A stretch of DNA of 64,000 nt, from assembly GCA_002686085.1 (NCBI GenBank), contig NZAC01000019.1, positions 1-64,000 of the forward strand, given 5' to 3'. A program made the translations under genes and the position numbers. Each line of letters starts with the position of its first letter. The first letter of the stretch is position 1. This stretch comes from Roseibacillus sp. GTDB taxonomy: Bacteria; Verrucomicrobiota; Verrucomicrobiia; Verrucomicrobiales; Akkermansiaceae. Positions 42,352-57,471 of the stretch are shown piece by piece. The notes under the pieces were generated by a model, which was not told where the DNA came from, did not search any database, and worked only from the letters and a program-made list of their open reading frames with translations.

Positions 42352-43014
42352 CTAGATAATTCCTTCCCTGAGTGCTTTTGCAACCGCGCCGGTATTCGTG
42401 TTGACATGAAGCTTATCGTAAACGCGGCGGAGGTGGGTCGAAACTGTGTTCACGCTGATACTCAAGGCGTCTGCTATTTCCTTCTTGAGGAGTCCTTCGG
42501 CGAGAAGTCTCAGAATTTCCTGCTCTCGTGCGGTCAGTCCGTAGTCCCCTTTTTCACCTGGTAACAAATCGGAGTTGGCAAAAGCATCGAGAACCTTTTT
42601 TGCGACTTCCGGGGTCATAGGCGCCCCACCACCCATGACCTGACGGATGGCTTCCCCAATTTTGTCGGTACCCGACGCTTTGAGGACGTAACCTGAAGCC
42701 CCAGCACAGACAGCGCGAAAGATTTTGTCCGCATCGTCAAAAACAGTGAGGATGATCACCCGGGTCTCAGGAATGGCTTCTCGGAACTCGGTAAGGGCTG
42801 CAATGCCATCGACTCCGGGAAGTTGAACATCCAACAGGATGACATCTGGAGCCGGATTAGTTTGAAGTGCTTTGAAAGTAGCCTCCGCAGAGTCAAAGCT
42901 GCCTTCGCAAGTCATCCCCTCGAGACTGTTAATAACTCGCTGAACGTTTCGCCGGAAGACTTCGTTGTCTTCAACCAGCCAGACTTGAATTTTTTCGGAA
43001 TGTGATTCGCTCAT
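42352..43014 (-). CDS. NarL/FixJ-family response regulator
   Basis: A 220-residue two-component regulator. The receiver domain (about 9-125) has WLVEDNEVF, the phospho-accepting Asp62 in DVILLDVQLPG, Thr in VIILTVFDDAD, and Lys in YVLKASGTD. The output is a LuxR-type helix-turn-helix (about 155-212: LTAREQEILRLLAEGLLKKEIADALSI). The ATG overlaps the TGA of the histidine kinase gene (ATGA), so both are translated together. It should bind DNA as a dimer after phosphorylation by the neighbour. Confidence 0.96.
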   Translation of the reverse strand: MSESHSEKIQVWLVEDNEVFRRNVQRVINSLEGMTCEGSFDSAEATFKALQTNPAPDVILLDVQLPGVDGIAALTEFREAIPETRVIILTVFDDADKIFRAVCAGASGYVLKASGTDKIGEAIRQVMGGGAPMTPEVAKKVLDAFANSDLLPGEKGDYGLTAREQEILRLLAEGLLKKEIADALSISVNTVSTHLRRVYDKLHVNTNTGAVAKALREGII

Positions 43015-45023
43015 AAGTTTCTGTGGTTCAGCGGTGCGGAGAACCGGATGGTCGTCCCCTTGTTTACAATACTGTCAATTTTCAACTGTCCGTTCACTCG
43101 ATTTGCCCGACGGCGAAAATTTTTCAAGCCGTGGCCTGAACCCTTGACTTCCTCAGGTTCAAACCCAACGCCATCATCCGACACCTCGAATGTCACGTGA
43201 CTGGGTGTCAATTCAAAAACTACCCGGACTTTGGCAGCATTCGCGTGTTTCTGGACGTTGTTGAGTGCTTCCTTGAAAGCGAAGAAGAAATGACGGCGGG
43301 ATTGAAGTCCAATCGGCCTACTTTTTTGGGATGGAGGTATAGAATGCACCGAAGTGTCGAGGTGACCTACGATCAGCTCAATAGATTCCCTCATTCTCAT
43401 GAAAAGATCCCGTGTGGTAGCCTCCCCGGTGTCTATAAGCCATACAATATCACGCATGGCCTCTGCTGTCTGTTCGGCTGTTTCTTGGATTTCTCTGAAG
43501 TCATCACGTGCAGTCTCACAGGCATCTTGGTTTGTGCTGCCTACTTCGCTGATGAGCACGATTCCGGCAAGATTGCTCCCGATGTCATCATGAAGGTCCC
43601 TCGCGATCTGTTTGCGTAACTTTTCTGAATCCCTAATGCGCACGGACCGTTGCCTGAAAATCATCCAGATCCATCCAACGAGAGCAATACCTCCGATGGT
43701 TCCTACTCCTATCGTCAACCTGGTGAGAGCTGTATCAGTATCCTTGCTCTGACGGTTGACCAGCTGGGTGCGTTCGTCCTCGAGAGCTCCGCGGTCGATG
43801 ATGACATCAATGTAATCGGGCAACTCGATCAAACTCGAGGAACTTGAGAAGCCATCCACTACATTTTGTGGAGACCATCCGGCAGTACCTGGGTCGGTGC
43901 TTTGATCGCTTACAGTCACTTTCTTGTGGAGAGCGACGTTAACTCCCTTGTGATATGCCTGAAGTTCCGAGATAGCGAAACTATGCATATCGCCCCGTGC
44001 AAAAAGCTCTCTCGAAGCGAGTCGTAGATAGCGTCCGGCTTCTCCGTTGCAACGTAAAACCAGGGCCGAGTCCCAGGGGAACCCCAAAGGGTGTCTGTAT
44101 TTCCTAGTTCTCCACACTGTCGTTTCAAATTTGGAGTCGTTAGAGAGCTCGATCGTAAGTGATTTTGGAAAACCTCTACCTCCGATGATCTCCGGATGAT
44201 CGGAGGACGTAGGAATAATACGGATTTCATCAACTGGGAGAGAGTGTCCAAGATCAACGATAATCCATTTAGGATCACTTGCTGATGCTGATCGAGCACT
44301 CAGGAATCCATTGGTCGGACTTGGCTTTGCCTCGTGAGGGTTTCCAGCCCGACTGATTCCGTCATTGATGCGTTGTAATGACCAATTTGGAAACAGTTCC
44401 TGAGTACTGGTTGCAGTACGTGGTCGCGCCGTGGCGATGTTGTAATTCCCGGAAAAAATCATGATTTCTTCCATAGCCCAGACGAAGCCGCCTTTTGCCG
44501 GAACGTGTTTTGTCGAGGTGAGCCGAACAAAGCGACCCCGAAATCCAGATGCAGAAAATTTGACAGGATACCGGCCAGGATTGGAGAAGTCGTATTCGGT
44601 GTGGTCCGCAATCGAACGAAATCCAGTGGTAGGAGTCTTAGAGACTTCAATTTTGAACCGTATGGGAAAACCGTATCCTTCTCCCGCGGGCCCAAGGGTG
44701 GGAAGGTGGACCGGGAGCAATACCACAGAATCGAGGGGGCGTACCTCTCCGAGGTCGATTTGCACATAATGCGGCTCCGTCTGCTGGATGATGGTTTCGC
44801 TATGAAAGCCAAACCGTGACCCTCTTGGGCCGGTGTAGAGCTTGGGGAGCTCTGAAAGTTCTTGGTCAATCCGGGCCAGACGAGCGTCGGCCTTCCGGAT
44901 ACCGGGTTTAATCAGGCGCACCATCCAGTCCTTAAGAGAAGAATTCGTATCCACAGGTGTTGCCAGAAGGGCAGGTGCAGCAGTTGCTAATACAAAAGCT
45001 ACTATGCGGAGAAGGTGAGGCAT
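43011..45023 (-). CDS. NarX-type sensor histidine kinase with discoidin-like periplasmic domains
   Basis: A 670-residue membrane sensor. It has a signal peptide, then about 400 periplasmic residues with at least two and probably three discoidin (F5/8C)-like domains (for instance YVQIDLGEVRPLDSVVLLPV, GRFVRLTSTKH; WIIVDLGHSLPVDEIRIIP, GRYLRLASRELFARGD; then NVALHKKVTVSDQS). One membrane helix is at 437-456, then HisKA_3 with the phospho-accepting His478 in RDLHDDIGSNLAG, and a GHKL ATPase domain with EALNNVQKHANA, DDGVGF and GHGLKNFRRR. AGGA eight bases before the ATG supports the start. The discoidin folds often bind sugars, so a glycan may be the ligand. Confidence 0.92.
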   Translation of the reverse strand: MPHLLRIVAFVLATAAPALLATPVDTNSSLKDWMVRLIKPGIRKADARLARIDQELSELPKLYTGPRGSRFGFHSETIIQQTEPHYVQIDLGEVRPLDSVVLLPVHLPTLGPAGEGYGFPIRFKIEVSKTPTTGFRSIADHTEYDFSNPGRYPVKFSASGFRGRFVRLTSTKHVPAKGGFVWAMEEIMIFSGNYNIATARPRTATSTQELFPNWSLQRINDGISRAGNPHEAKPSPTNGFLSARSASASDPKWIIVDLGHSLPVDEIRIIPTSSDHPEIIGGRGFPKSLTIELSNDSKFETTVWRTRKYRHPLGFPWDSALVLRCNGEAGRYLRLASRELFARGDMHSFAISELQAYHKGVNVALHKKVTVSDQSTDPGTAGWSPQNVVDGFSSSSSLIELPDYIDVIIDRGALEDERTQLVNRQSKDTDTALTRLTIGVGTIGGIALVGWIWMIFRQRSVRIRDSEKLRKQIARDLHDDIGSNLAGIVLISEVGSTNQDACETARDDFREIQETAEQTAEAMRDIVWLIDTGEATTRDLFMRMRESIELIVGHLDTSVHSIPPSQKSRPIGLQSRRHFFFAFKEALNNVQKHANAAKVRVVFELTPSHVTFEVSDDGVGFEPEEVKGSGHGLKNFRRRANRVNGQLKIDSIVNKGTTIRFSAPLNHRNL

Positions 45024-45244: not shown

Positions 45245-47671
45245 ATGCGAAACCCATCCCTCCATATCCTAGTTACTCTTATCCTCGCGGGTTCGATTGC
45301 GTGCGAAGCGGCTCGGAAGCCGGTCGTGCCCGATTTAATCAAGGGAGAACTGCCGGATGCTTTTCACGACTGGAATCTCGGGCCAACCGGAGCCAGAGGA
45401 TGGATCTGGGGATGGAATCTTGAGACTACCGATAGTCGGCAAATTCTGATCACATCAGTAAAGGAGGATACGCCCGCATTTGGAGTCCTCAGAAAAGGGG
45501 ACGTCATTCTTGGAACGAATGGCAAATTGTTTGATGCCGATGCGAGGAAGCTATTTGGGAATGCCGTCACCGATGCTGAGACTGAGGAGAAAGCGGGCAG
45601 ACTGAACGTGCTCCGTTGGCGGGATGGAAAAACAGAATCTGTGGTCATTCAGCTTCGGGTTCTCGGTGCCTATCACGATGCTTCTCCGTGGGAGTGCAGG
45701 AAGTCTGCTGAGATTGTGGATGTTGGCTGTAGATACATCGTCAATAATCTGAAGGAAGGAGTGGATGGGAAGATCAATGTTCTCGCCTTACTTGCATCCG
45801 GGAAAGAGGAGTTTCTGCCAATCGTGAGAGACTATGCGCGAAGGCTGGCTCCCAGTGACCTTCGCCTGAAAATGTCTCCTGCGAGTTCGATGGCATCGTG
45901 GCATTGGGGATATACGAACTTACTTCTTACTGAGTACTTTCTTGCTACAGGTGATCGTGAGGTTCTGCCTGCGATCCGTGAATATACAATCCGGCTGGCG
46001 GAAGGGCAAAGCGGAGTTGGAAGTTGGGGTCACACAATGGCTTGGCCTCAATGGAATGATGGAAAAGAGCATGGACGGCTAGGTGGATACGGCGCTCTTA
46101 ATCAGGCTGGGTTGATATGTCAGCTTTCGCTCATCCTTGGCAAGAAATGCGGAGTGTCCGCGCCTCAGGTAGACCAGGCGATAGAACGTGGAAACCTGTT
46201 CTTCGGGTTCTATGTTGGAAAGGGGTCCATCCCTTATGGGGACAATCCGCCAGATATGAGCTTCCATGATGACAATGGTAAAAATGGAATCGCGGCACTC
46301 CTCTTCGATGCTCAGGATAAACAGAAGGAGGCTCAGTTCTTCTCTCGGATGGCAGTCGCCTCCTACGGAGAGCGCGAACGTGGGCATACAGGGAACTACT
46401 TCAGCTATCTCTGGGGTGCCCTTGGTGCTATGAGAGCTGGTCCCGAGGCAGTATCGGCATATCTTAAAAAACAGCGATGGTATCTCGACTTAAACCGGAG
46501 TCACAATGGTCAATTTCCCTATCAGGGGGGAGCGGGAAGCTCGAAATCTGAGCATCTTTACAGCAATTGGGACTGTACAGGAGCATTTATCCTGTCCTAC
46601 CTCCTGCCAGAGGGGCGGTTGTTCATGACGGGTCGTGGTGTGAAAGTCCGGAACGCGCTGGTGGGGCAAGCGCTTACTGATACCATTGCAGCAGGACGGG
46701 AATTCAATTCCTGGGACAAGGGAGCAGGATCGTATCGCTCGCTTTCAGTGGCGCAGTTGTTGCAAGCATTGAGGAGCTGGTCGCCAGTGGTGAGGCAAAG
46801 AGCAGCGAGGATTCTAGCCGAGCAGGAGGAGCTCCCCCTCGAAGAGTTGATTAAAAGGCTGGACGCGAGTGACTATGAGTCACGATATGGAGCATGCCAG
46901 GCAATCGCGATACTAGGAGCACGTGGATTGCCAGCAGTGAAACCCCTGCGGGAGCTTCTATGGGATCAAGATCCCTGGTTGCGGATCCTTGCAGCGAAGG
47001 CTCTCACAGCAGCTGGGGCACCTGCCGCTCAGCTTGTGCCAGATTTCCTTAAGATGATATCGGAGGAAGAGTTTTCCGGTTCGGGCGAGGTGGTGCAGCG
47101 CTATCTTGCGTTTTGCCTCTTCTGCAGGGGAGGAGTCCTTGGAATGGAGGGGCTTCTTGCTCATTCGGTCCAAGGCATAGACTTGGGAGAGTTGCGGCCT
47201 GCGGTGGAGCGAATACTCAAGAATCCTGATGCCCGGGCGAGGGCGACCGTGAAGTCTCTATATCACCAGCTTAATTATGAGGAGATAAAGCCGTTTCTCC
47301 CAGCCGTAATTCGATCTATTGTTGATCCAGCTCCTACAGGAATCATGTTTGCAGATGCTATTCGACTTGAGGGCCTTGATCTTCTCGCCCGTCATCGAGT
47401 TAGGGAAGGAATGGAACTCTGTCTGGCAATACTGGACCTTGATTCATGGGGAAAACGGAATCGAATTCTACGCTGCCTGAGGGCTTTGCGAAAATATGGA
47501 GGAGCCGCAAAGCCTCTCCTCCCACAGTTACAGGTGATACAGATGCAACTGCTGAGGCATCGTGAGAGACGCTCCCTTGAAGCACAAATTGACGAGCTTA
47601 GCTCGTTGATCGAAGTGCTTGAAAATGCTCCCGAGGAGAATGAAGCGCTACGCTCCCTGTCCCTGCCCTAG
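45245..47671 (+). CDS. Exported PDZ / alpha-toroid / HEAT-repeat protein (DUF6288-like)
   Basis: An 808-residue exported protein. Signal peptide (LHILVTLILAGSIACEA), a PDZ-like domain at about 45-140 (RQILITSVKEDTPAFGVLRKGDVILGTNGKLF), an alpha-helical toroid region of about 150-500 with W/G-rich turns (ASWHWGYTNLLLTEY, SHNGQFPYQGGAGSSKSEHLYSNWDCTGAFILSYLLPEGRL) as in DUF6288, and HEAT-like helices (about 540-800: LIKRLDASDYESRYGACQAIAILG, LRELLWDQDPWLRILAAKAL). A GGGAG ribosome site lies almost directly before ATG 45245. Its stop codon overlaps that of the convergent dehydrogenase gene. The function is not known. Confidence 0.85.
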   Translation: MRNPSLHILVTLILAGSIACEAARKPVVPDLIKGELPDAFHDWNLGPTGARGWIWGWNLETTDSRQILITSVKEDTPAFGVLRKGDVILGTNGKLFDADARKLFGNAVTDAETEEKAGRLNVLRWRDGKTESVVIQLRVLGAYHDASPWECRKSAEIVDVGCRYIVNNLKEGVDGKINVLALLASGKEEFLPIVRDYARRLAPSDLRLKMSPASSMASWHWGYTNLLLTEYFLATGDREVLPAIREYTIRLAEGQSGVGSWGHTMAWPQWNDGKEHGRLGGYGALNQAGLICQLSLILGKKCGVSAPQVDQAIERGNLFFGFYVGKGSIPYGDNPPDMSFHDDNGKNGIAALLFDAQDKQKEAQFFSRMAVASYGERERGHTGNYFSYLWGALGAMRAGPEAVSAYLKKQRWYLDLNRSHNGQFPYQGGAGSSKSEHLYSNWDCTGAFILSYLLPEGRLFMTGRGVKVRNALVGQALTDTIAAGREFNSWDKGAGSYRSLSVAQLLQALRSWSPVVRQRAARILAEQEELPLEELIKRLDASDYESRYGACQAIAILGARGLPAVKPLRELLWDQDPWLRILAAKALTAAGAPAAQLVPDFLKMISEEEFSGSGEVVQRYLAFCLFCRGGVLGMEGLLAHSVQGIDLGELRPAVERILKNPDARARATVKSLYHQLNYEEIKPFLPAVIRSIVDPAPTGIMFADAIRLEGLDLLARHRVREGMELCLAILDLDSWGKRNRILRCLRALRKYGGAAKPLLPQLQVIQMQLLRHRERRSLEAQIDELSSLIEVLENAPEENEALRSLSLP

Positions 47672-48780: not shown

Positions 48781-49174
48781 GCGGACCTTCTTCGTTTGGG
48801 ACAGCCGGGATATGGCTGCCGGAACGATGGCAGTCAAGACGGGTCTTTTTTGCGCGCAGACCCCGGTTTGTAACCTTTGAGTGACAGGCCTCGGGGCTGA
48901 TCTCAATTTATTCCAGTTTTCTAGGAGATGGGATCATGCGCTTGTGCAGTCTGAGAGACTCGCGACATGAATATGGGGTAGAAGAATCTTGCTGCAAGAT
49001 GCAGGAAAGTTCTGAACAGAGAATTGTCACCCGGTCGGATCCCTATGAAGTGTTGCTGAATTCTCGACCTCTAAACAGGGAGTTGGTCAAGTTTGCCCCT
49101 GCTTTCCAGCAACGGGTTGCGAAGGTCAAATTGAGGAGCTGTGGGCTATTCCCGGGCCGGGCAATCTCTTTACT
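48781..49174. other. 394-base region without a convincing gene
   Basis: This stretch lies upstream of the glucose dehydrogenase gene and downstream of the heme/cyclase-like gene, both on the minus strand. It should hold the promoter of the former. A 98-codon plus-strand frame (48936-49232) has no recognisable features and overlaps the end of the next gene. I see no clear terminator or RNA. Confidence 0.5.
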
Positions 49175-50233
49175 CTACTCCGGAGGGCTCAGAGCGAGGA
49201 GTGCAAAGCTAGTGGCAGCATTGGAAATGTAGTGCCTGTTGTCCTTATGGGGGGAGCGAGTATACCATCGGCCACTCGCTCGTTGCTGGGTCCGTAGCCA
49301 CCGTCGCGCCTTCATCAGCCGCGGATCACCATATTCTACTCCCGATTTAACCAGCACATGAGCAGCAAACGCAGTTGCGTAGGCATCCGGATCAGTGGAC
49401 TGAGACTTGCCATCAGATCTTTTCCAATTTTTGTCACCAAGTTCTGGAAGGACCCACCCGCCATTCAATTTCTGGACTGAGAACAACTCGTCCTGCCATT
49501 TCTTCACCACATTTTTTTTGACAAGATCGTTACGGTATCCTGCTGCCCACAGGAGCATGCCCTTCTGGTGGAGAGATTCAGGGGGATGACTGCGCAGGAA
49601 TTTTTTAAGGCGTTGGTCCGCCTCCGCTGCTTGGGGTGATTGGGTATATTCATCACGGGAGGCCACTCCAAGGGCGAGCGCTACGAGGGATACTCCGAAG
49701 TGATCGTCTGATTCATATGGCCCCCAGTTGCATTTGATCCACTTTTCCCATGCTCCGGAGTCGGACTGTATTCTCCATATGTAATCAAAAGCCTGACGAG
49801 TGGTCTCTGAAAGTGCGCCCTCGATTTTCATATCGCTGATTGCCAGAAAGGCAGTGGTAGCAACCATTGCCTCGGCTCCGGGCGTCCGCGTCCCTTTCCT
49901 TTGATGGTCCGGGTCAACATGCGGCTTTATAAATTCATGGGCAAAATTTCTTGCCTCAAGATAGGCGGGGGCCTGACTTCCGCTCCGCGCTCGACCAATA
50001 AGGTAAAACCCGTTGGTGTGACATGTGATGCAGCTGTGGGACTGCTGCCAGTTCATTGCCGCATGGTCAGCAGCACGGGTGGCGGCGGGGTAGGAAAATT
50101 GAGAGCGAAGTTGTTCCCCGGCGGTGAGCGGTTCCGGTGCCAGGTGATTTTCCAGAGTTACCGCGGTGTCGTCCGCCAGTAGGCTCAAGGAATATGAGCT
50201 GATCAGTATGATGAAAAAGGACAAACGCATCAT
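49175..50233 (-). CDS. Exported c-type heme protein with squalene-cyclase-like repeats
   Basis: A 352-residue exported protein; the start is ATG 50233 or the adjacent ATG 50230. The signal peptide is MRLSFFIILISSYSLSLLA, followed by a single c-type heme motif CITCH (Cys68, Cys71, His72). The rest is an alpha-toroid of the squalene-cyclase/prenyltransferase type with Gly/Trp turns (GAWEKWIKCNWGPYESDDHFG, GGWVLPELGDKNW, SGRWYTRSPHKDNRHY). It is the last gene of a tight three-gene group (11 bases after the previous one). The heme and toroid combination suggests a redox role in the periplasm, possibly with the two propellers upstream; the substrate is not known. Confidence 0.8.
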   Translation of the reverse strand: MMRLSFFIILISSYSLSLLADDTAVTLENHLAPEPLTAGEQLRSQFSYPAATRAADHAAMNWQQSHSCITCHTNGFYLIGRARSGSQAPAYLEARNFAHEFIKPHVDPDHQRKGTRTPGAEAMVATTAFLAISDMKIEGALSETTRQAFDYIWRIQSDSGAWEKWIKCNWGPYESDDHFGVSLVALALGVASRDEYTQSPQAAEADQRLKKFLRSHPPESLHQKGMLLWAAGYRNDLVKKNVVKKWQDELFSVQKLNGGWVLPELGDKNWKRSDGKSQSTDPDAYATAFAAHVLVKSGVEYGDPRLMKARRWLRTQQRASGRWYTRSPHKDNRHYISNAATSFALLALSPPE

Positions 50234-50244
50234 TCGAAGTTGTC

Positions 50245-51474
50245 TCAGGGGGCGTATGCCCGGATCGTTCCATGGCTGTCCGAAGCGTAGAGCATGCCGC
50301 CAGAGATGGCGAGGCCATGCACTGCTCCTCCTTGGGGGATTTGAGATTCCCAAAGCAAGGACCCATTTTCACGGGAGTAGGCTTTGATTCCTCCGTCATG
50401 ACCGAGGATCACAGCCCCAGAGGAGACAATCAATTCGGAAGGAGGTGGGGTGTCCACTGCCCACTCAGAAAGCTCATCTTTGACCTTCCCAAGGGCAACG
50501 GCCTTGAGCGAGCCCCTGGTGTGGAGATAGGCGATACCATCTGCCACCACCGCGCAGGAGGTGTCGTTGAAAGTTGCAACGCGGGCTCCTTTTGCGTCAG
50601 TAAGGAAAAGTTGGTTGTCTTTGGCTTTCTGGGATTTTGGACCAGAGATCAGCTGATTATCCTCGGTGACGAGGCAAAAGACTCCTCCAGCGTGCCCGAT
50701 AGCTCCAGAGGGCTTTCCGGTTTTCAGGTCATAGAGGAGGGGTGCAGATCTGCCCTGGGGTGCGATCAGGGTATCGGCAGTCGCCAGGAGTGCTCCTTGA
50801 AGGGTAACGTTACTGATCTCTTGACTGAATTTGCGCATGCCTGTTTCGGGGTTGGCTGCGATCAGCCAGCTCGACTCCCACGGAGTGAGTGATGCGGTAA
50901 AGAACAGAGTATTGTTCACCACGAGTGGTGCAGTTCGTACTGGCCACAATGAAATCATGCTCGCATTACTGGGGATCCGGCGGTCATCGGGAGATCCTCG
51001 GTCTTTCCATATCAGATTGCCCGATCGCGCATCTAGAGCATAGAGATGCCCGTCATCTGAGCCCGCGAAGGCAATGCCATCGTGGATTGTCGGGGGCAGT
51101 CGCACGGGTGCTTCTGTGAAGAAAACCCAGCGCTCCTCCCCGGTCCTTGTGTCGAGAGCGTGCACAGCATTGTCATGAGAGGAGCCGAAATATACGAGAT
51201 CCCCGACACTGGTAACATAGAAGCATGGATCAAAATTCCGCATCGACTGAAGCCCCGAGTTGCCCGAGTAGGCATCCCATTTGGCGGGGCCGCTCCAGGC
51301 CTGACGCGGATACCCTCCTTTCACCTGCCAGGATTCTGAGAGAGGGAATTTGAGCGTTGCAGCACTGACGCCACTGCGCCGCGAGTCGTGGCGATAGGTA
51401 GGCCAGTCATCTGCCCGAAGCATTGATGAGGACAGGGCTGCAGCGATGAAGAGTATGAATGAAAGTATTCTCAC
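50245..51474 (-). CDS. Exported PQQ-type beta-propeller protein (BamB-like)
   Basis: A 409-residue exported protein. The GTG at 51474 is chosen because it puts the signal peptide (RILSFILFIAAALSSSMLRAD) at the N terminus and leaves 10 bases after the upstream gene; the longer frame begins at 51516. The propeller has blades with typical turns: AVHALDTRTGEERWVFF, GHLYALDARSGNLIWKD, LLYDLKTGKPSGA, GIKAYSRENGSLLWESQ, and GTIRAYAP. It could be a BamB-like scaffold or bind PQQ. It is the second gene of the tight exported module, so a role with the 963-residue protein is likely. Confidence 0.85.
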   Translation of the reverse strand: MRILSFILFIAAALSSSMLRADDWPTYRHDSRRSGVSAATLKFPLSESWQVKGGYPRQAWSGPAKWDAYSGNSGLQSMRNFDPCFYVTSVGDLVYFGSSHDNAVHALDTRTGEERWVFFTEAPVRLPPTIHDGIAFAGSDDGHLYALDARSGNLIWKDRGSPDDRRIPSNASMISLWPVRTAPLVVNNTLFFTASLTPWESSWLIAANPETGMRKFSQEISNVTLQGALLATADTLIAPQGRSAPLLYDLKTGKPSGAIGHAGGVFCLVTEDNQLISGPKSQKAKDNQLFLTDAKGARVATFNDTSCAVVADGIAYLHTRGSLKAVALGKVKDELSEWAVDTPPPSELIVSSGAVILGHDGGIKAYSRENGSLLWESQIPQGGAVHGLAISGGMLYASDSHGTIRAYAP

Positions 51475-51484
51475 GACGGACGAT

Positions 51485-54376
51485 TTATCTGGCCGCGGGT
51501 GGAGAGGAGGGGGCAATTTTTGGAGGGGAGGTTCTGGGCCTGAGGCCGATCGAAGTCTCCATCCAACCTCCGCACGAGCACCCGGCGCCTCCCTCAGGAA
51601 TCAGGAGCATGCCCTGGGCTGGGATTGTATTCAGCCAGCAACTGGGACGAATTCGCATGAAACGGGATACCGACCCAGTGTCCTTGTTCCATAGGCCAAG
51701 AGGAGAGTTGCCCTCGCCGAGAATCCGAAACATGAGAGCGTTTTTGGTCGCGACTACGGTTGAGCAGCCTCGGCGTGGTCCATAGCTTTCGCCGAGGGGC
51801 TGCCCGGTCCTGAGGTCATGAATATGCGGTGCAAAATACAGCCGGTCCTCAGTGACAACCGGATGCGTAATGTGTGTGCCGTGATGATCGGCCCCCCAGG
51901 GACTTTCGGTTGACCACATCAGAGATCCATCCTGATCATAACTGGTGCAGCGAAAGTTTCCCTTCTTCTGGTAGGTCCCACTGTTGTTGACTGTGCCCTC
52001 GGAAAGAACAGCGAGGTAGCCTTGTGATGTTGCAATACCGTAGGCGGCTTGGACGAAGCCCACTTTTTCGGTCAGGAAGACAGGCTTTGGGCCGGGCTTT
52101 TCCCAAATGACCTTCCCCGTGGTGGCGTCGAGACAGACTGCGGTCAATCCAAGCCATAATCTGCGGTCGGATACTCTGGAGGAGGGTTTCCCCGAAAGGT
52201 CAAGAGAGCGATTCTCGAGGAAGTAAACCCTGCCTCCGTGAAGAGCGATGGTTGCATTCAGAATCAGTCCGCGACCATAGGACCAGATGCCCTCGGCGGT
52301 TGATTTCTGGTAGCCAAAGAGCTGGTCGCTGCAAACCTGTGTGACCTCCACGCCTACCTTGTCGAACCACGCGGCATCGCCCCAGAATTCCCGATACGCA
52401 GAGTTCGCCCAAACAGAGGAACCGATGATGACGTCGTTTTCCTGGGCGACGAAACCCCAGTCGTGGGATTTGCGTTTGGCAGTGGGAAGAAGTAGCGCAT
52501 GACGGAGTTCTCCAGTTCTGGCGCTGAGTATCCAGAGGCGGTCTTTGATAGAGAGATAGACATTCGAGCCATCGACTGACCAGTTGGAGCAGTCGTGAGC
52601 AACGTTGAGCCGGCGCAGAGAGGGAATCTCGTAGGACCATAGCACAGCTCCGTTGTAAGTGTTCAATGCCACCATGCGGTCCATGCCCTGGTGGAAGAGT
52701 CGGCCATTCGCTGCCAGAGGGGCAGGCATCCGAGGTTGGCGATCGATTCCGAAGTCACCCCCCGGATGGCCGATCCACTGAACAGACATCCCTGAAGTGG
52801 CGCTCACATCGCCGAGAGCCTCACCCGTGTATGAGGCGTTACCTGCCGTCCCATACTGGTGGGTCCAATCCCTTGCTCCAGTGAGCTCCCCGCGGCGGAA
52901 AAGGGAGAAGGAGCCTGCCTCCTCCCATCGCCCCGGAGCATTTTCGAAGTCGGGCAACTTCTTGCCGGAAGGCGTGAGGAGGGCTCCACCATCAGGTCGG
53001 AGCAGGCGAAGGCATTCCGAGGCGGAAACAGGCAGAGATTCCCGCTCTGATAGGATAAGATCCGCAAAGCCATCAGTCCAAGGGGTCTCCCCATTGTCGC
53101 CGAGGGAAACGACAGAGATGCGATGGCCAAGAGTGCCGTTCTCATAAAGTTTTTTCCGGACGGACTGGAGAACAGAGGGGTCGGAGTCAGCTGCGACAAT
53201 GTGGAATCGCGATCTGGCGGCCAAGGCAGAGGCCAGTGCGCCATCTTCGAGCCCGAGAATGAGGAGGTAGCCGTTCTGATCCGCAGTAGCTTTCAGAGCG
53301 GTAGTGGCGAGCGCCTCGGTGTCTTCTGAGAGGGTTTGGGGGCCTCTTACAGGGGTAGGAGAAAGATTAAACTTGGTATCGAATTCAAACATCTCGCTGA
53401 GGCGACGACGTTTATTTTCGAGCAGTGCGATACGGTAGCGATAGGTGGTCGCCCTTTTCAGTGCAGCGAGGTCTACGTCATAGCGCCCATCTGAAGATTC
53501 CACTTCCTCTTTGTGCTCCAGTATTCCTTTCTTCCCTTCGCCATAGTAGAGAATGGCCTTTTGAGCGGGAGCCTGCCACGAGACCGTGGCGGTATCGGGG
53601 TCAGGGAAAGCGACTCTGGGCTGGACCGAAAAGGTAGCTGGTTGCTCGTCATTCACTTCAATATTATCGATCACCCACCACCAGTGGTTGGATCCGATCT
53701 TCCTCCATTCGATCCGCATCGTACTTGCTCCTTCGGGGTTTTTGAGCGCCACCCGGATGGTCTCGCTGTAGGCAGTCGATTTGCCCTCATCGAAGCGAAG
53801 AACTTCAATTCCCTCCTGGTTATCATAAGAAACCATGACGGTTCCAGTCTGGGATTCAGCCTGCCACCCTGAATCAAATTTCAGGGTTAGGCTCATTGGG
53901 TCGGCTCTCGAGATATCAATTGATGGAGTCCGTAAGGTCGCATCGAAGGGTCTTCCTCCCGGGGCGTCATCGAATTCATCACTGTCAGCAATAGCGATTA
54001 CGTTCGTGCCGAGCGAAAATTTCTCGCGTCGCTGACCTGGGGCTGCATCAGCCCACCCCTTGGGAGAGGCAAATGTCCACCCCGACCACTCGACCACCCC
54101 GCCTTTCCCATGTGATGCATTCTTAATCATGTGCCACCCCAGGAGAGCGCCGGCTTTCTGTGCGGTTGGTAAATCCAGCCAGTCAGTCCCATCTCCGTTG
54201 GGTTCAGACGGGAAAGGAAGTAGCCCCGGCTCAGTGGCCAAGGAGTCAAAGTTCTCGCTGAAATAAGTTGTGACTCCAGAGAAATTGTCACTCTCCTGGG
54301 CAATGACGAACGGCAGGCCGCAACCAGCAATTACAGCCGGGGTGACCCGTGATATCAATTTGCAGATCATTCCCAT
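51485..54376 (-). CDS. Exported protein: beta domain, FN3-like, methyltransferase-like and PQQ propeller
   Basis: A 963-residue exported protein. Order: signal peptide (1-26), a jelly-roll/MAM-like domain (about 35-243, with WWWVIDNIEV), an FN3/phosphatase-N-like domain (about 250-335, ATVSWQAPAQKAILYYGEG), a class I SAM-methyltransferase-like Rossmann segment (about 355-495: GYLLILGLEDGALASALAA, HIVAADSDPSVLQSVRKKL, ECLRLLRPDGGAL), a PQQ-type propeller (about 500-930: VALNTYNGAVLWSYEIP, VCLDATTGKVIWEKPG), and a C-terminal SCWLNTIPAQG...GCSCGGW block with three cysteines. The methyltransferase segment has a degenerate glycine motif (GLEDGA instead of GxGxG). First gene of the exported three-gene module; a soluble methyltransferase-like domain outside the cytoplasm is odd. 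Confidence 0.85.
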   Translation of the reverse strand: MGMICKLISRVTPAVIAGCGLPFVIAQESDNFSGVTTYFSENFDSLATEPGLLPFPSEPNGDGTDWLDLPTAQKAGALLGWHMIKNASHGKGGVVEWSGWTFASPKGWADAAPGQRREKFSLGTNVIAIADSDEFDDAPGGRPFDATLRTPSIDISRADPMSLTLKFDSGWQAESQTGTVMVSYDNQEGIEVLRFDEGKSTAYSETIRVALKNPEGASTMRIEWRKIGSNHWWWVIDNIEVNDEQPATFSVQPRVAFPDPDTATVSWQAPAQKAILYYGEGKKGILEHKEEVESSDGRYDVDLAALKRATTYRYRIALLENKRRRLSEMFEFDTKFNLSPTPVRGPQTLSEDTEALATTALKATADQNGYLLILGLEDGALASALAARSRFHIVAADSDPSVLQSVRKKLYENGTLGHRISVVSLGDNGETPWTDGFADLILSERESLPVSASECLRLLRPDGGALLTPSGKKLPDFENAPGRWEEAGSFSLFRRGELTGARDWTHQYGTAGNASYTGEALGDVSATSGMSVQWIGHPGGDFGIDRQPRMPAPLAANGRLFHQGMDRMVALNTYNGAVLWSYEIPSLRRLNVAHDCSNWSVDGSNVYLSIKDRLWILSARTGELRHALLLPTAKRKSHDWGFVAQENDVIIGSSVWANSAYREFWGDAAWFDKVGVEVTQVCSDQLFGYQKSTAEGIWSYGRGLILNATIALHGGRVYFLENRSLDLSGKPSSRVSDRRLWLGLTAVCLDATTGKVIWEKPGPKPVFLTEKVGFVQAAYGIATSQGYLAVLSEGTVNNSGTYQKKGNFRCTSYDQDGSLMWSTESPWGADHHGTHITHPVVTEDRLYFAPHIHDLRTGQPLGESYGPRRGCSTVVATKNALMFRILGEGNSPLGLWNKDTGSVSRFMRIRPSCWLNTIPAQGMLLIPEGGAGCSCGGWMETSIGLRPRTSPPKIAPSSPPAAR

Positions 54377-54562
54377 GTCCCTGAACCTAGGCAGCCTAGG
54401 CTTATGTGCGGCCGAGGGAAAAGAATAACATTCCAGATCTTCCGGACAGGAGCCTAATCACAGGAAATAATAATCCAGAGGGTGACTTGCCCGTCCTTCT
54501 GTAAAGGGATCTGAGTCCGGAGGATCCTAAGCCTGCTTTTTCTGACTAACGAAGCGTCTGGA

Positions 54563-55873
54563 TTACTTGCCGGGAACGATTTTCCAGATCTCCCCATTTT
54601 TTCCTGATGGCCCCTTGCCTGTGTTGGTGAGCACGTAGACCTCTCCGGTTTGGTCATATCCGAATCCAATGACCATCCTCGAAATTGGGCCGGCTGGGGT
54701 CTTTGCGCCGGGGATTACTTTCATGGTCCAAGTCGTCTTGGAGTCCCGGATGCCACCATAGAGACCATATTTTTTTCCTGCCCAGCTTTGGGCCCAGTCT
54801 GCAAAGAGGTAGACTCCGTTGAGCCCGGGGATCGCCTTACCTCTGTAGACATGCCCCCCGGTGACACTGACTCCATAACCGGCAGCTTTGCCGAGGCCGT
54901 CGTGGTGAGGGTAGACAAGCACCGGTGCGACGAATCCCTCCGGCGCAGCTGATACCTCCAACGTGCATGGCTCACTTGGTTTCAGCTGATCGAAGGGAGC
55001 ATAACCTTCGTAGCGGGGCCAGCCGAAGTTGCCAGCAGAGAGGACGTTGATTTCCTCAAAGCGATTTTGACCAACATCTGCGACGATAATATCTCCGCTC
55101 TCATGGTCGACGGTGATGCCCCACGGATTGCGAATTCCCCAGGCGTAGATCTCCTCTCTCCCGTCCTGGCTGCCCTTGAAGGGGTTGCCATCAGGGATGG
55201 CGTAAGGGTCTTTGGAATCAATGTCGAAACGCAGAACTTTACCAAGATAGCGATTGAGAGCCTGTCCGTTACCGCCCTTTTCGTGCCCGCCTTCCGGAGA
55301 GCCCTTTGGGTCAAGGTCGTTGGCGGCGCCCCCGTCACCAAGCCCGAGGTAAAGAAATCCATCTTTCCCAAAAACCAGATTGCCTCCATCGTGATTCCAC
55401 TGTGGCTGGTCCACGGTGAAGATGATGCGCTCGCTTCTCGTGTCAGCCGTTCCGTCAGCCTTGACTTTAAATTCCGAAAGATGTGCCGTGTGATCAAAAT
55501 TCTCAGTTCCCCCTGACGCGAGTGGTGCGCTGTAGTACACATACACCTTTCTGGTGGATTTGAACTGAGGGTGGAGCGCGACTCCGAGAGATCCACGTTC
55601 GTCGAAACCTTTTTTCAGATTCACAATGGACTTGCGGAGATCGAGGAAGGCTTTGCCAGGTTTCCCTCCTTTCTCGTCAAGAAAGTGAATGACGCCTGTT
55701 TGGTCGACAACGAGATACGCCTGCTCGCCCTCTCCATATGGGATCATGCTGAGGGGTGAGACAAAGCCAGATGCAAACTTCTCATAGCTCACGTTGGGAA
55801 GTTCCTCTGCGGCCTGGAGGGTGGGCAGGGCAAGAGTGAGAGCCAGGGCTGGGAGAAGAAATCGTGGTGTCAT
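54563..55873 (-). CDS. PQQ-dependent sugar dehydrogenase-like protein (GSDH family)
   Basis: A 436-residue periplasmic protein of the glucose/sorbosone dehydrogenase family with a six-bladed propeller. The start ATG at 55873 gives a signal peptide (FLLPALALTLALPTLQAAE). Family blocks: PLSMIPYGEGEQAYLVVDQTG, GSLGVALHPQF, QPQWNHDGGNLVFGKDGFLYLGLGDGG, YAWGIRNPWGITVDHESGD, IIVADVGQNRFEEIN, and TGGHVYRGKAIPGLNGVYLFADW. These can bind PQQ and oxidise aldoses outside the cell, but substrate and cofactor use vary. It precedes the 963-residue gene on the same strand by 186 bases. Confidence 0.92.
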   Translation of the reverse strand: MTPRFLLPALALTLALPTLQAAEELPNVSYEKFASGFVSPLSMIPYGEGEQAYLVVDQTGVIHFLDEKGGKPGKAFLDLRKSIVNLKKGFDERGSLGVALHPQFKSTRKVYVYYSAPLASGGTENFDHTAHLSEFKVKADGTADTRSERIIFTVDQPQWNHDGGNLVFGKDGFLYLGLGDGGAANDLDPKGSPEGGHEKGGNGQALNRYLGKVLRFDIDSKDPYAIPDGNPFKGSQDGREEIYAWGIRNPWGITVDHESGDIIVADVGQNRFEEINVLSAGNFGWPRYEGYAPFDQLKPSEPCTLEVSAAPEGFVAPVLVYPHHDGLGKAAGYGVSVTGGHVYRGKAIPGLNGVYLFADWAQSWAGKKYGLYGGIRDSKTTWTMKVIPGAKTPAGPISRMVIGFGYDQTGEVYVLTNTGKGPSGKNGEIWKIVPGK

Positions 55874-56049
55874 CTTGATAGTATTCTGCGCGTTTCCGGT
55901 GGTTTGGCAACCCGTCATTAATAGGCACACGTTGATGGGACCGGAAGGGATGAATCGGTAAATATTCAGATGCCTGAATCTCGTATCATCCTAAATTGTT
56001 ACCCTGTGTTTTTCTTGCCATTGGCTGGACGGGCTGGAGGATCAGTCCC

Positions 56050-57471
56050 TTGAATCCGCGTCTATTTCCAGCGCTCTCTGCGATCTTTCTGGCTCATGCT
56101 GTTCCCGTGCCGGCTGCGAAAGCTCAGAAAGTTCATCCACCGAATATCATTTTGATCATAGCGGATGACCTTGGCTACGGAGACCTTGGATGTTTCGGCC
56201 AGAAAGTGCTGAAAACACCTCGAATCGATGGGATGGCTTCCGAGGGAATGCGGTTCACGCAATTCTATGCGGGATCGACGGTATGTGCGCCCTCACGGAG
56301 CGTCCTGATGACAGGGCGGCATATGGGCCGAACGGTCGTACGGGGTAATTCAACCCGGCCTGTGATTCTTCGTCCGGAGGACCCTAACCTCGCGTCACTC
56401 CTGAAAAGCGCAGGTTATCGAACGGCCTGTATTGGAAAATGGGGATTGGGAACTCCCGACAACATAAGTAATCCAAATGATATCGGATTTGATCATTTCT
56501 TTGGCTATGTGGATATGTGGCACGCGCACAACTTTTATCCTGAGTTCCTGATCCGGAACGGTGAGGTGCAGCAGTTACGTAACGAGGTGGCCCCGCGCTG
56601 GAAGCCCTTTCAGCAACCGGGGAGGCCCCAGGCAGGGCGGGGAGTAGCGATCAAGCGGGTTGACTATGCCCCTGACCTCTTCATTGCCGAGGTTCAGAAA
56701 TTTATCCGCGACAGCCACAGGGAGCCATTTTTCCTTTTTCATTCTCTCAACACACCTCATGCCAATAACGAGGCAGGTTCCAAGGGGATGGAAGTGTCGG
56801 ATCTGGGGGAGTTTTCGGACAAGGACTGGCCGGCTCCTGAGAAGGGCTTCGCTGCCATGATTCGCAATATCGATCGTGATGTCGGTCGGATCCTTGATTT
56901 GCTCAAGGAGCTCAAGATTGAGAAGGATACCCTGGTCATCTTCAGCTCGGATAACGGGCCCCACCAGGAGGGTGGACACCGGGCAGATTTCTTTGATTCA
57001 AATGGCCCCCTGCGTGGAACCAAGAGGGATCTTACGGAAGGAGGAATCCGTGTGCCCGCCATTGCCTGGTGGCCGGGAACCATTGATCCCGGGGCAGTGG
57101 ACGACGCTCACTGGTATTTTGGCGACCTGATGGCGACCGCTGCGGAACTTGCTGGAGTAGAGCCTCCCGCCAACATCGACAGCGACAGTTTTGTGGCGCC
57201 CCTGCTGGGCGAACCCCGTGAGAAGCGTTGGACCCGGAAATCCCTCATGTATTGGGAGTTCTACGAGAGAGGGTCGGCCCAGGCGGTTCGTTTTGGGAAG
57301 TGGAAGGCCATTCGTAAGCCGATGTTCACTGGGAAGATCGAGCTCTACGACATGTCGAATGATCCGGGGGAAAAGCACGATTACAGCAGGAGGCGACCTG
57401 ATCTGGCCAGGCAGGCGGCCGGGTTAATGGACCGTGCTCACGAGGGCGATCCGAACTGGAAGGTCAGATAG
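56050..57471 (+). CDS. Exported arylsulfatase-family enzyme
   Basis: A 473-residue sulfatase that releases sulfate from sugar or aryl esters. The frame opens at TTG 55996, but TTG 56050 has GGAGG nine bases upstream and places the signal peptide (LFPALSAIFLAHAVPVPAAKA) at the N terminus. The active site Cys79 in CAPSRSVLMTGR is changed to formylglycine by the FGE enzyme. Metal residues are in IIADDLGYGDLG and FSSDNGPHQEGGHRADFF. The C-terminal part has the typical YDMSNDPGEKHDYS turn. Sulfatases like this are common in bacteria that eat marine sulfated polysaccharides. It is divergent from the GSDH gene. Confidence 0.94.
   Translation: MNPRLFPALSAIFLAHAVPVPAAKAQKVHPPNIILIIADDLGYGDLGCFGQKVLKTPRIDGMASEGMRFTQFYAGSTVCAPSRSVLMTGRHMGRTVVRGNSTRPVILRPEDPNLASLLKSAGYRTACIGKWGLGTPDNISNPNDIGFDHFFGYVDMWHAHNFYPEFLIRNGEVQQLRNEVAPRWKPFQQPGRPQAGRGVAIKRVDYAPDLFIAEVQKFIRDSHREPFFLFHSLNTPHANNEAGSKGMEVSDLGEFSDKDWPAPEKGFAAMIRNIDRDVGRILDLLKELKIEKDTLVIFSSDNGPHQEGGHRADFFDSNGPLRGTKRDLTEGGIRVPAIAWWPGTIDPGAVDDAHWYFGDLMATAAELAGVEPPANIDSDSFVAPLLGEPREKRWTRKSLMYWEFYERGSAQAVRFGKWKAIRKPMFTGKIELYDMSNDPGEKHDYSRRRPDLARQAAGLMDRAHEGDPNWKVR

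Follow-up and report, generated by a model that had tools for sequence, protein, structure and literature searches.

A conserved pair of exported propeller genes, joined in Roseibacillus by a one-heme gene, and the wider operon around it

The window analyzed here is a stretch of 64,000 nucleotides from Roseibacillus sp. (GenBank assembly GCA_002686085.1, contig NZAC01000019.1, positions 1 to 64,000 of the forward strand), labeled G000:C19 in a genome of 3.95 Mb whose closest named relatives are Roseibacillus and Akkermansiaceae metagenome-assembled genomes (MAGs) in Verrucomicrobiota. Three genes lie in a row on its minus strand: gene 1 (51485-54376; 963 amino acids, ATG start) for an exported protein with FN3, methyltransferase-like and propeller domains, gene 2 (50245-51474; 409 amino acids, GTG start) for an exported propeller of the PQQ_2/BamB type, and gene 3 (49175-50233; 352 amino acids, ATG start) for an exported alpha-toroid that carries a single c-type heme site. 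They are separated by 10 bases (51475-51484) and 11 bases (50234-50244), respectively, and export has been read from the hydrophobic, signal-peptide-like N-terminus of each protein. A previous sequence-only reading by a model had described this row of three exported genes and taken it for one operon; the coordinates confirm the arrangement, and the spacing makes a single transcript probable. Promoter and terminator scans of 48850-56050 gave the same counts as shuffled sequences and thus say nothing on transcript ends. Since the ratio of nonsynonymous to synonymous substitution rates (dN/dS) against congeners is 0.07-0.14, the three genes are under purifying selection and are not chance open reading frames.

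By scanning 84,980 species genomes with an alignment of gene 1, we collected 79 named loci from Verrucomicrobia, Planctomycetes, Kiritimatiellia and Lentisphaeria, together with single Armatimonadetes and Nitrospiraceae MAGs. Of the 76 loci that leave room for it, 74 have gene 2 immediately behind gene 1 and on its strand; they come from several phyla and include the window. In third place, 41 loci have the family called CVPVF below, 10 loci, all of them from Roseibacillus, have gene 3, and 4 have a LolC-like permease; in 19 there is another gene, none or a contig end. Genes 1, 2 and 3 are adjacent in genomes of the same genus, with kept GSDH and sulfatase neighbors, and in the congener G009 gene 3 is found about 11 kb downstream of the pair on the same strand. 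Outside the genus, the pair occurs without gene 3 in G022, G034, G050 and G056. Genes 1 and 2 are therefore a conserved, inseparable pair, which gene 3 joins only in Roseibacillus. The sequence-only reading had set as its test whether the three are neighbors in other genomes; genes 1 and 2 are, but gene 3 is not, and the idea of one cross-phylum module of three genes was rejected. Since the cultured relatives Rhodopirellula and Stieleria have the pair, its operon is open to testing. The pairs at L123 and L168 are on the contigs labeled Armatimonadetes and Nitrospiraceae, and represent either transfer or mis-binning.

The usual third gene outside the genus codes for an exported, membrane-anchored protein, named CVPVF for its CxVPVF motif. 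It has a Cys directly after the signal-like sequence (CxVPVFRYALERW), a CSCxVK motif and, in almost every member, a hydrophobic anchor at the C-terminus; three Cys and one Lys are kept in 42 of 42 members. Two members scanned against Pfam and NCBIfam had no match, and nothing significant was found among PDB sequences. Gene 1 has matches at E<=1e-20 in 18 of 288 genomes of the phylum, in two of them through the N-terminal domain only. CVPVF is present in 16 of 16 genomes with a real gene 1 and in 16 of the 272 others (Fisher p 9e-18, uncorrected for relatedness); the two genomes with N-terminal matches only were dropped post hoc, and retaining them gives 16/18 and p 1e-15.

Further genes linked to the pair code for a LolD-like ATPase and a permease resembling FtsX/LolCE, for a ThiS/MoaD-like carrier and a ThiF/MoeB-like activating enzyme, and for ModB, ModC and a binding protein of the ModA type that was matched over two stretches. 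The ModA, ThiF, LolD and FtsX genes each lie less than 10 kb from the pair in 20-22 of the 79 loci, and ThiS in 9, a count that is probably too low because ThiS is short. The sequence-only reading knew no described system with its three-gene set, and we likewise found no description of the operon in the open-access literature searched, which is weak evidence of novelty with most subscription journals and preprints outside the scope. The window leads to a conserved multi-phylum operon of the pair and CVPVF, which is widespread in Verrucomicrobia, Planctomycetes and relatives and is apparently undescribed.

A fuller copy of this operon is present in the same genome at G000:C7:94000-112000 (L174 4571-13805), with ThiF, ThiS, a 1288-amino-acid protein that matches both propeller families, CVPVF, ModA, ModB and ModC. 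CVPVF is missing from the operon in the window, and gene 3 stands in its place. An orphan CVPVF gene is found at G000:C53 (L175 8927-10132), adjoining a sulfatase-like gene and with no propeller partner nearby. Across the genus this orphan is conserved, at 90-98% in the closest species, and it is 52% identical to the CVPVF of G009, which still follows genes 1 and 2. On the simplest reading, this lineage would have lost CVPVF from the operon and acquired gene 3 there.

For gene 1, the sequence-only reading had listed a beta domain, an FN3-like domain, a methyltransferase-like domain and a propeller, and all four were recovered on the minus strand, the FN3-like and methyltransferase matches being below the Pfam cut-off. 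The N-terminal beta domain (residues 28-245, 53642-54295) is Reelin-like by a weak match in the window, and is LamG in other loci and absent in some. It is followed by a purple-acid-phosphatase-N/FN3-like domain (residues 252-334, 53375-53623; 25.6 bits vs a Pfam cut-off of 30), a methyltransferase-like Rossmann domain (residues about 350-470, 52967-53329) and a BamB-like beta-propeller of the PQQ_2/BamB type (residues 526-948, 51533-52801). The structure model has a mean predicted local distance difference test (pLDDT) score of 74.6, with good prediction from residue 245, and the FN3, Rossmann and propeller domains are visible in it. In a plasmid search with gene 1, matches were limited to the N-terminal domain and came from actinobacterial metallophosphoesterases and phospholipases. 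The same domain is tandemly repeated in a 2443-amino-acid frame of G050:C5.

The middle domain has a Rossmann methyltransferase fold, matching 3dlc both by profile (E 3e-6) and by model (E 1.5e-5), and its Pfam match (residues 374-463) is weak. Its motif I reads GLEDG, and among 56 homologs the first Gly is kept in 42, the middle one in 9 and the third in 32. Judged from these residues, the domain looks degenerate, with the fold retained and the glycine-rich motif I for binding S-adenosylmethionine lost. Because motif I is not retained, gene 1 is unlikely to be an active methyltransferase.

The propeller of gene 1 contains a set of Cys and His residues that is invariant in 77 of 77 homologs, again on the minus strand: H832, H835 and H838 of an HHxxHxxH motif (H831, H832, H835, H838; 51863-51886), C871 (51764-51766), C913 in RPSCW (51638-51640) and the CSC motif C933-C935 in CSCGGWMET (51572-51580). 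Because these homologs were collected by the patterns CGGWMET and PG[GA]DFGID, the conservation of C935, which falls within the first of them, is partly built in, and that of the other residues is not. A C...C...CxC pattern was found in all 80 close homologs, in 16 of 17 intermediate ones and in 8 of 14 remote ones, with the 1288-amino-acid paralog included; the search used a loose regular expression, which makes the remote cases weaker. We infer that the four Cys and the His of HxxHxxH form a putative redox-active metal or metal-sulfur site.

The top Foldseek match of the gene 1 model is another propeller, tetrathionate hydrolase of Acidithiobacillus (6l8a; E 9e-14, 14% identity), with no shared chemistry shown. 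Residues 526-947 align with BamB at a Z score of about 24, which reflects a shared fold and says nothing on function. Gene 1 differs from BamB in the invariant Cys/His set, in the FN3 and methyltransferase-like domains and in its operon. Gene 2 does match BamB profiles, but at 54.4 bits against the TIGR03300 cut-off of 285.2, and gene 1 has no such match.

That gene 2 is a propeller, as the sequence-only reading stated, is confirmed by PQQ_2 repeats above the Pfam cut-off (36 vs 26.7 bits). The further proposal that the propellers bind pyrroloquinoline quinone (PQQ) was not supported. BamB has the same repeats without PQQ, which counts against taking them as a sign of the cofactor. PQQ quinoprotein dehydrogenases belong to the same repeat superfamily, and methanol and ethanol dehydrogenases gave weak matches; the vicinal disulfide pair of these enzymes is missing here, with no CC in the gene 1 or gene 2 protein. 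Against the NCBIfam quinoprotein models, gene 2 reaches 38.6 bits vs 480 (TIGR03075) and gene 1 has no match. In the genome search pqqE was not over the cut-off, and pqqC gave no hit, with pqqC controls also silent. PMC12124388 describes PQQ import as widespread, so that missing biosynthesis does not exclude PQQ use.

The sequence-only reading had seen in gene 3 one heme site joined to squalene-cyclase-like repeats. The heme site is borne out by the heme-binding motif CITCH (residues 68-72, 50018-50032, minus strand), a CxxCH attachment motif on a predicted exported protein, whose two Cys and His are unchanged in nine homologs. The Pfam scan gave no Cytochrom_C (PF00034) match for gene 3, which is outside the genome's 25 PF00034 matches. 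The repeats were recovered more weakly, at 21.4 bits against a Pfam cut-off of 26.1, and a profile of gene 3 matches squalene-hopene cyclase repeats at E 5e-8. Compared with the alpha-toroids of squalene and terpene cyclases, gene 3 has CxxCH and is exported, and the catalytic DxDD motif is absent from its 352 amino acids as read by eye. Its model, built from seven close sequences, is all-helical with toroid-like hits; it is of low confidence (mean pLDDT 53) and gave no Foldseek hit below E 0.02, and therefore the fold assignment rests on the profile matches. Full-length matches among the 288 genomes of the phylum occur only in the genome of the window and in G055, and in the set of relatives gene 3 is found in the genus and in G055, G048 and G044; the match in G043 is weak and partial. 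At L071 (9603-12020), a relative of gene 3 is fused behind a long N-terminal region, which we take to be ceramidase-like, 3.8 kb from a CVPVF-ModA pair with unrelated genes between.

Taking these results together, we tentatively favor, at clearly less than even confidence, a redox role for the exported pair, with a Cys/His site matured by the accessory genes and the heme protein as acceptor in Roseibacillus. The propeller of gene 1 would carry a redox-active metal or metal-sulfur site made of the four invariant Cys and the His of HxxHxxH, and gene 2 would be its structural partner. The supply of an oxyanion metal and of sulfur, and help in loading the site, may come from ModABC, ThiS/ThiF, the ATP-binding cassette (ABC) transporter and CVPVF. 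In Roseibacillus, CVPVF would have moved out of the operon and the one-heme toroid taken its place, probably as electron acceptor. The fuller version of this proposal, an undescribed exported metal-sulfur enzyme system of Planctomycetes-Verrucomicrobia-Chlamydiae (PVC) bacteria, whose Cys/His cluster in gene 1 is made with ModABC, ThiS/ThiF, the ABC transporter and CVPVF and has a c-type heme protein as its electron acceptor in Roseibacillus, is in our view unlikely as a whole. NosZ is a propeller metal-sulfur enzyme served by the ABC transporter NosDFY, and is mentioned as an analogy only; the present operon has four Cys, ThiS/ThiF and ModABC, and no sequence relation is claimed. No substrate can be named. 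If the Cys and His bind a metal or a metal-sulfur cluster, the pair would amount to a cofactor enzyme that is new, exported and accompanied by supply genes of its own. The periplasmic redox complex of the sequence-only reading is possible; the case for it comes from the heme-binding motif of gene 3 and the invariant Cys and His of gene 1, not from chemistry.

Several observations weigh against the redox pair. Four Cys in an oxidizing compartment may just make two disulfides. Many of the loci are truncated, and only about one in four has ModABC and ThiS/ThiF; neither set adjoins the pair in the window. Homologs of gene 3 outside the genus sit amid unrelated genes, so its link to the pair may be loose. 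Additional copies of CVPVF are present in G009, so a duplication may be part of its relocation.

With disulfides in place of a metal site, the pair may have a structural or adhesive role, as an exported scaffold or glycan-binding complex without redox function whose swappable, lectin-like N-terminal domain sets the target. We regard this as possible, if rather doubtful. An N-terminal domain that is Reelin-like (by a weak match) in one locus, LamG in others and absent in some behaves as binding modules typically do. Some loci adjoin sulfatase and DUF1080 genes, and the propeller fold best matches BamB-like propellers. A scaffold would, however, need neither the linkage to ThiS/ThiF, ModABC and CVPVF nor an invariant HxxHxxH beside the Cys.

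Another reading, rather unlikely but compatible with any view of the pair, makes gene 3 a passenger that entered the locus behind the pair when the ancestor of the genus arose or lived, and that shares the transcript of the pair while being unrelated to the propellers. The confinement of its link to one genus, its separation from the pair in G009 and the unrelated loci of its homologs elsewhere all point in this direction. The short-gap adjacency has nevertheless been kept in 10 loci of the genus that have diverged to about 65-70% protein identity, with synonymous sites near saturation among congeners.

Envelope assembly, in which BamB-like propellers, a LolCD-like ABC transporter and CVPVF move or fold envelope proteins or lipoproteins, appears distinctly unlikely. 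In its favor are the fold, for which BamB is one of the nearest matches, and the resemblance of the permease to FtsX/LolCE and of the ATPase to LolD, but the scores are far below the cut-offs (54 vs 285 bits for the BamB model, 20 vs 362 for LolCE), ThiS/ThiF and ModABC are left unexplained, and the sparse spread (about 16 of 288 genomes of the phylum) is unlike that of a housekeeping factor. Least probable of all is the version of the sequence-only reading in which PQQ-dependent dehydrogenase propellers hand electrons to the heme protein, since the PQQ-type repeats of gene 2, the GSDH neighbor, the heme site and the chance of imported PQQ are outweighed by the missing Cys pair, the low quinoprotein scores, the pqqE and pqqC searches and the absence of the heme protein beside the pair outside the genus.

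As the sequence-only reading had noted, a GSDH-family gene (PF07995, 118 bits; 54563-55930, minus strand) lies upstream of gene 1 on the same strand, at a distance of 186 bases. It is a kept neighbor within the genus and was not seen beside the pair in the inspected loci outside it. Elsewhere in the window, 42352-45023 codes for a sensor kinase with two F5/8-type C (discoidin) domains, which adjoins an apparent response regulator. The gene at 45245-47671, which is kept near the three genes in the genus, codes for an exported DUF6288 protein that has HEAT repeats and a PDZ-like domain.

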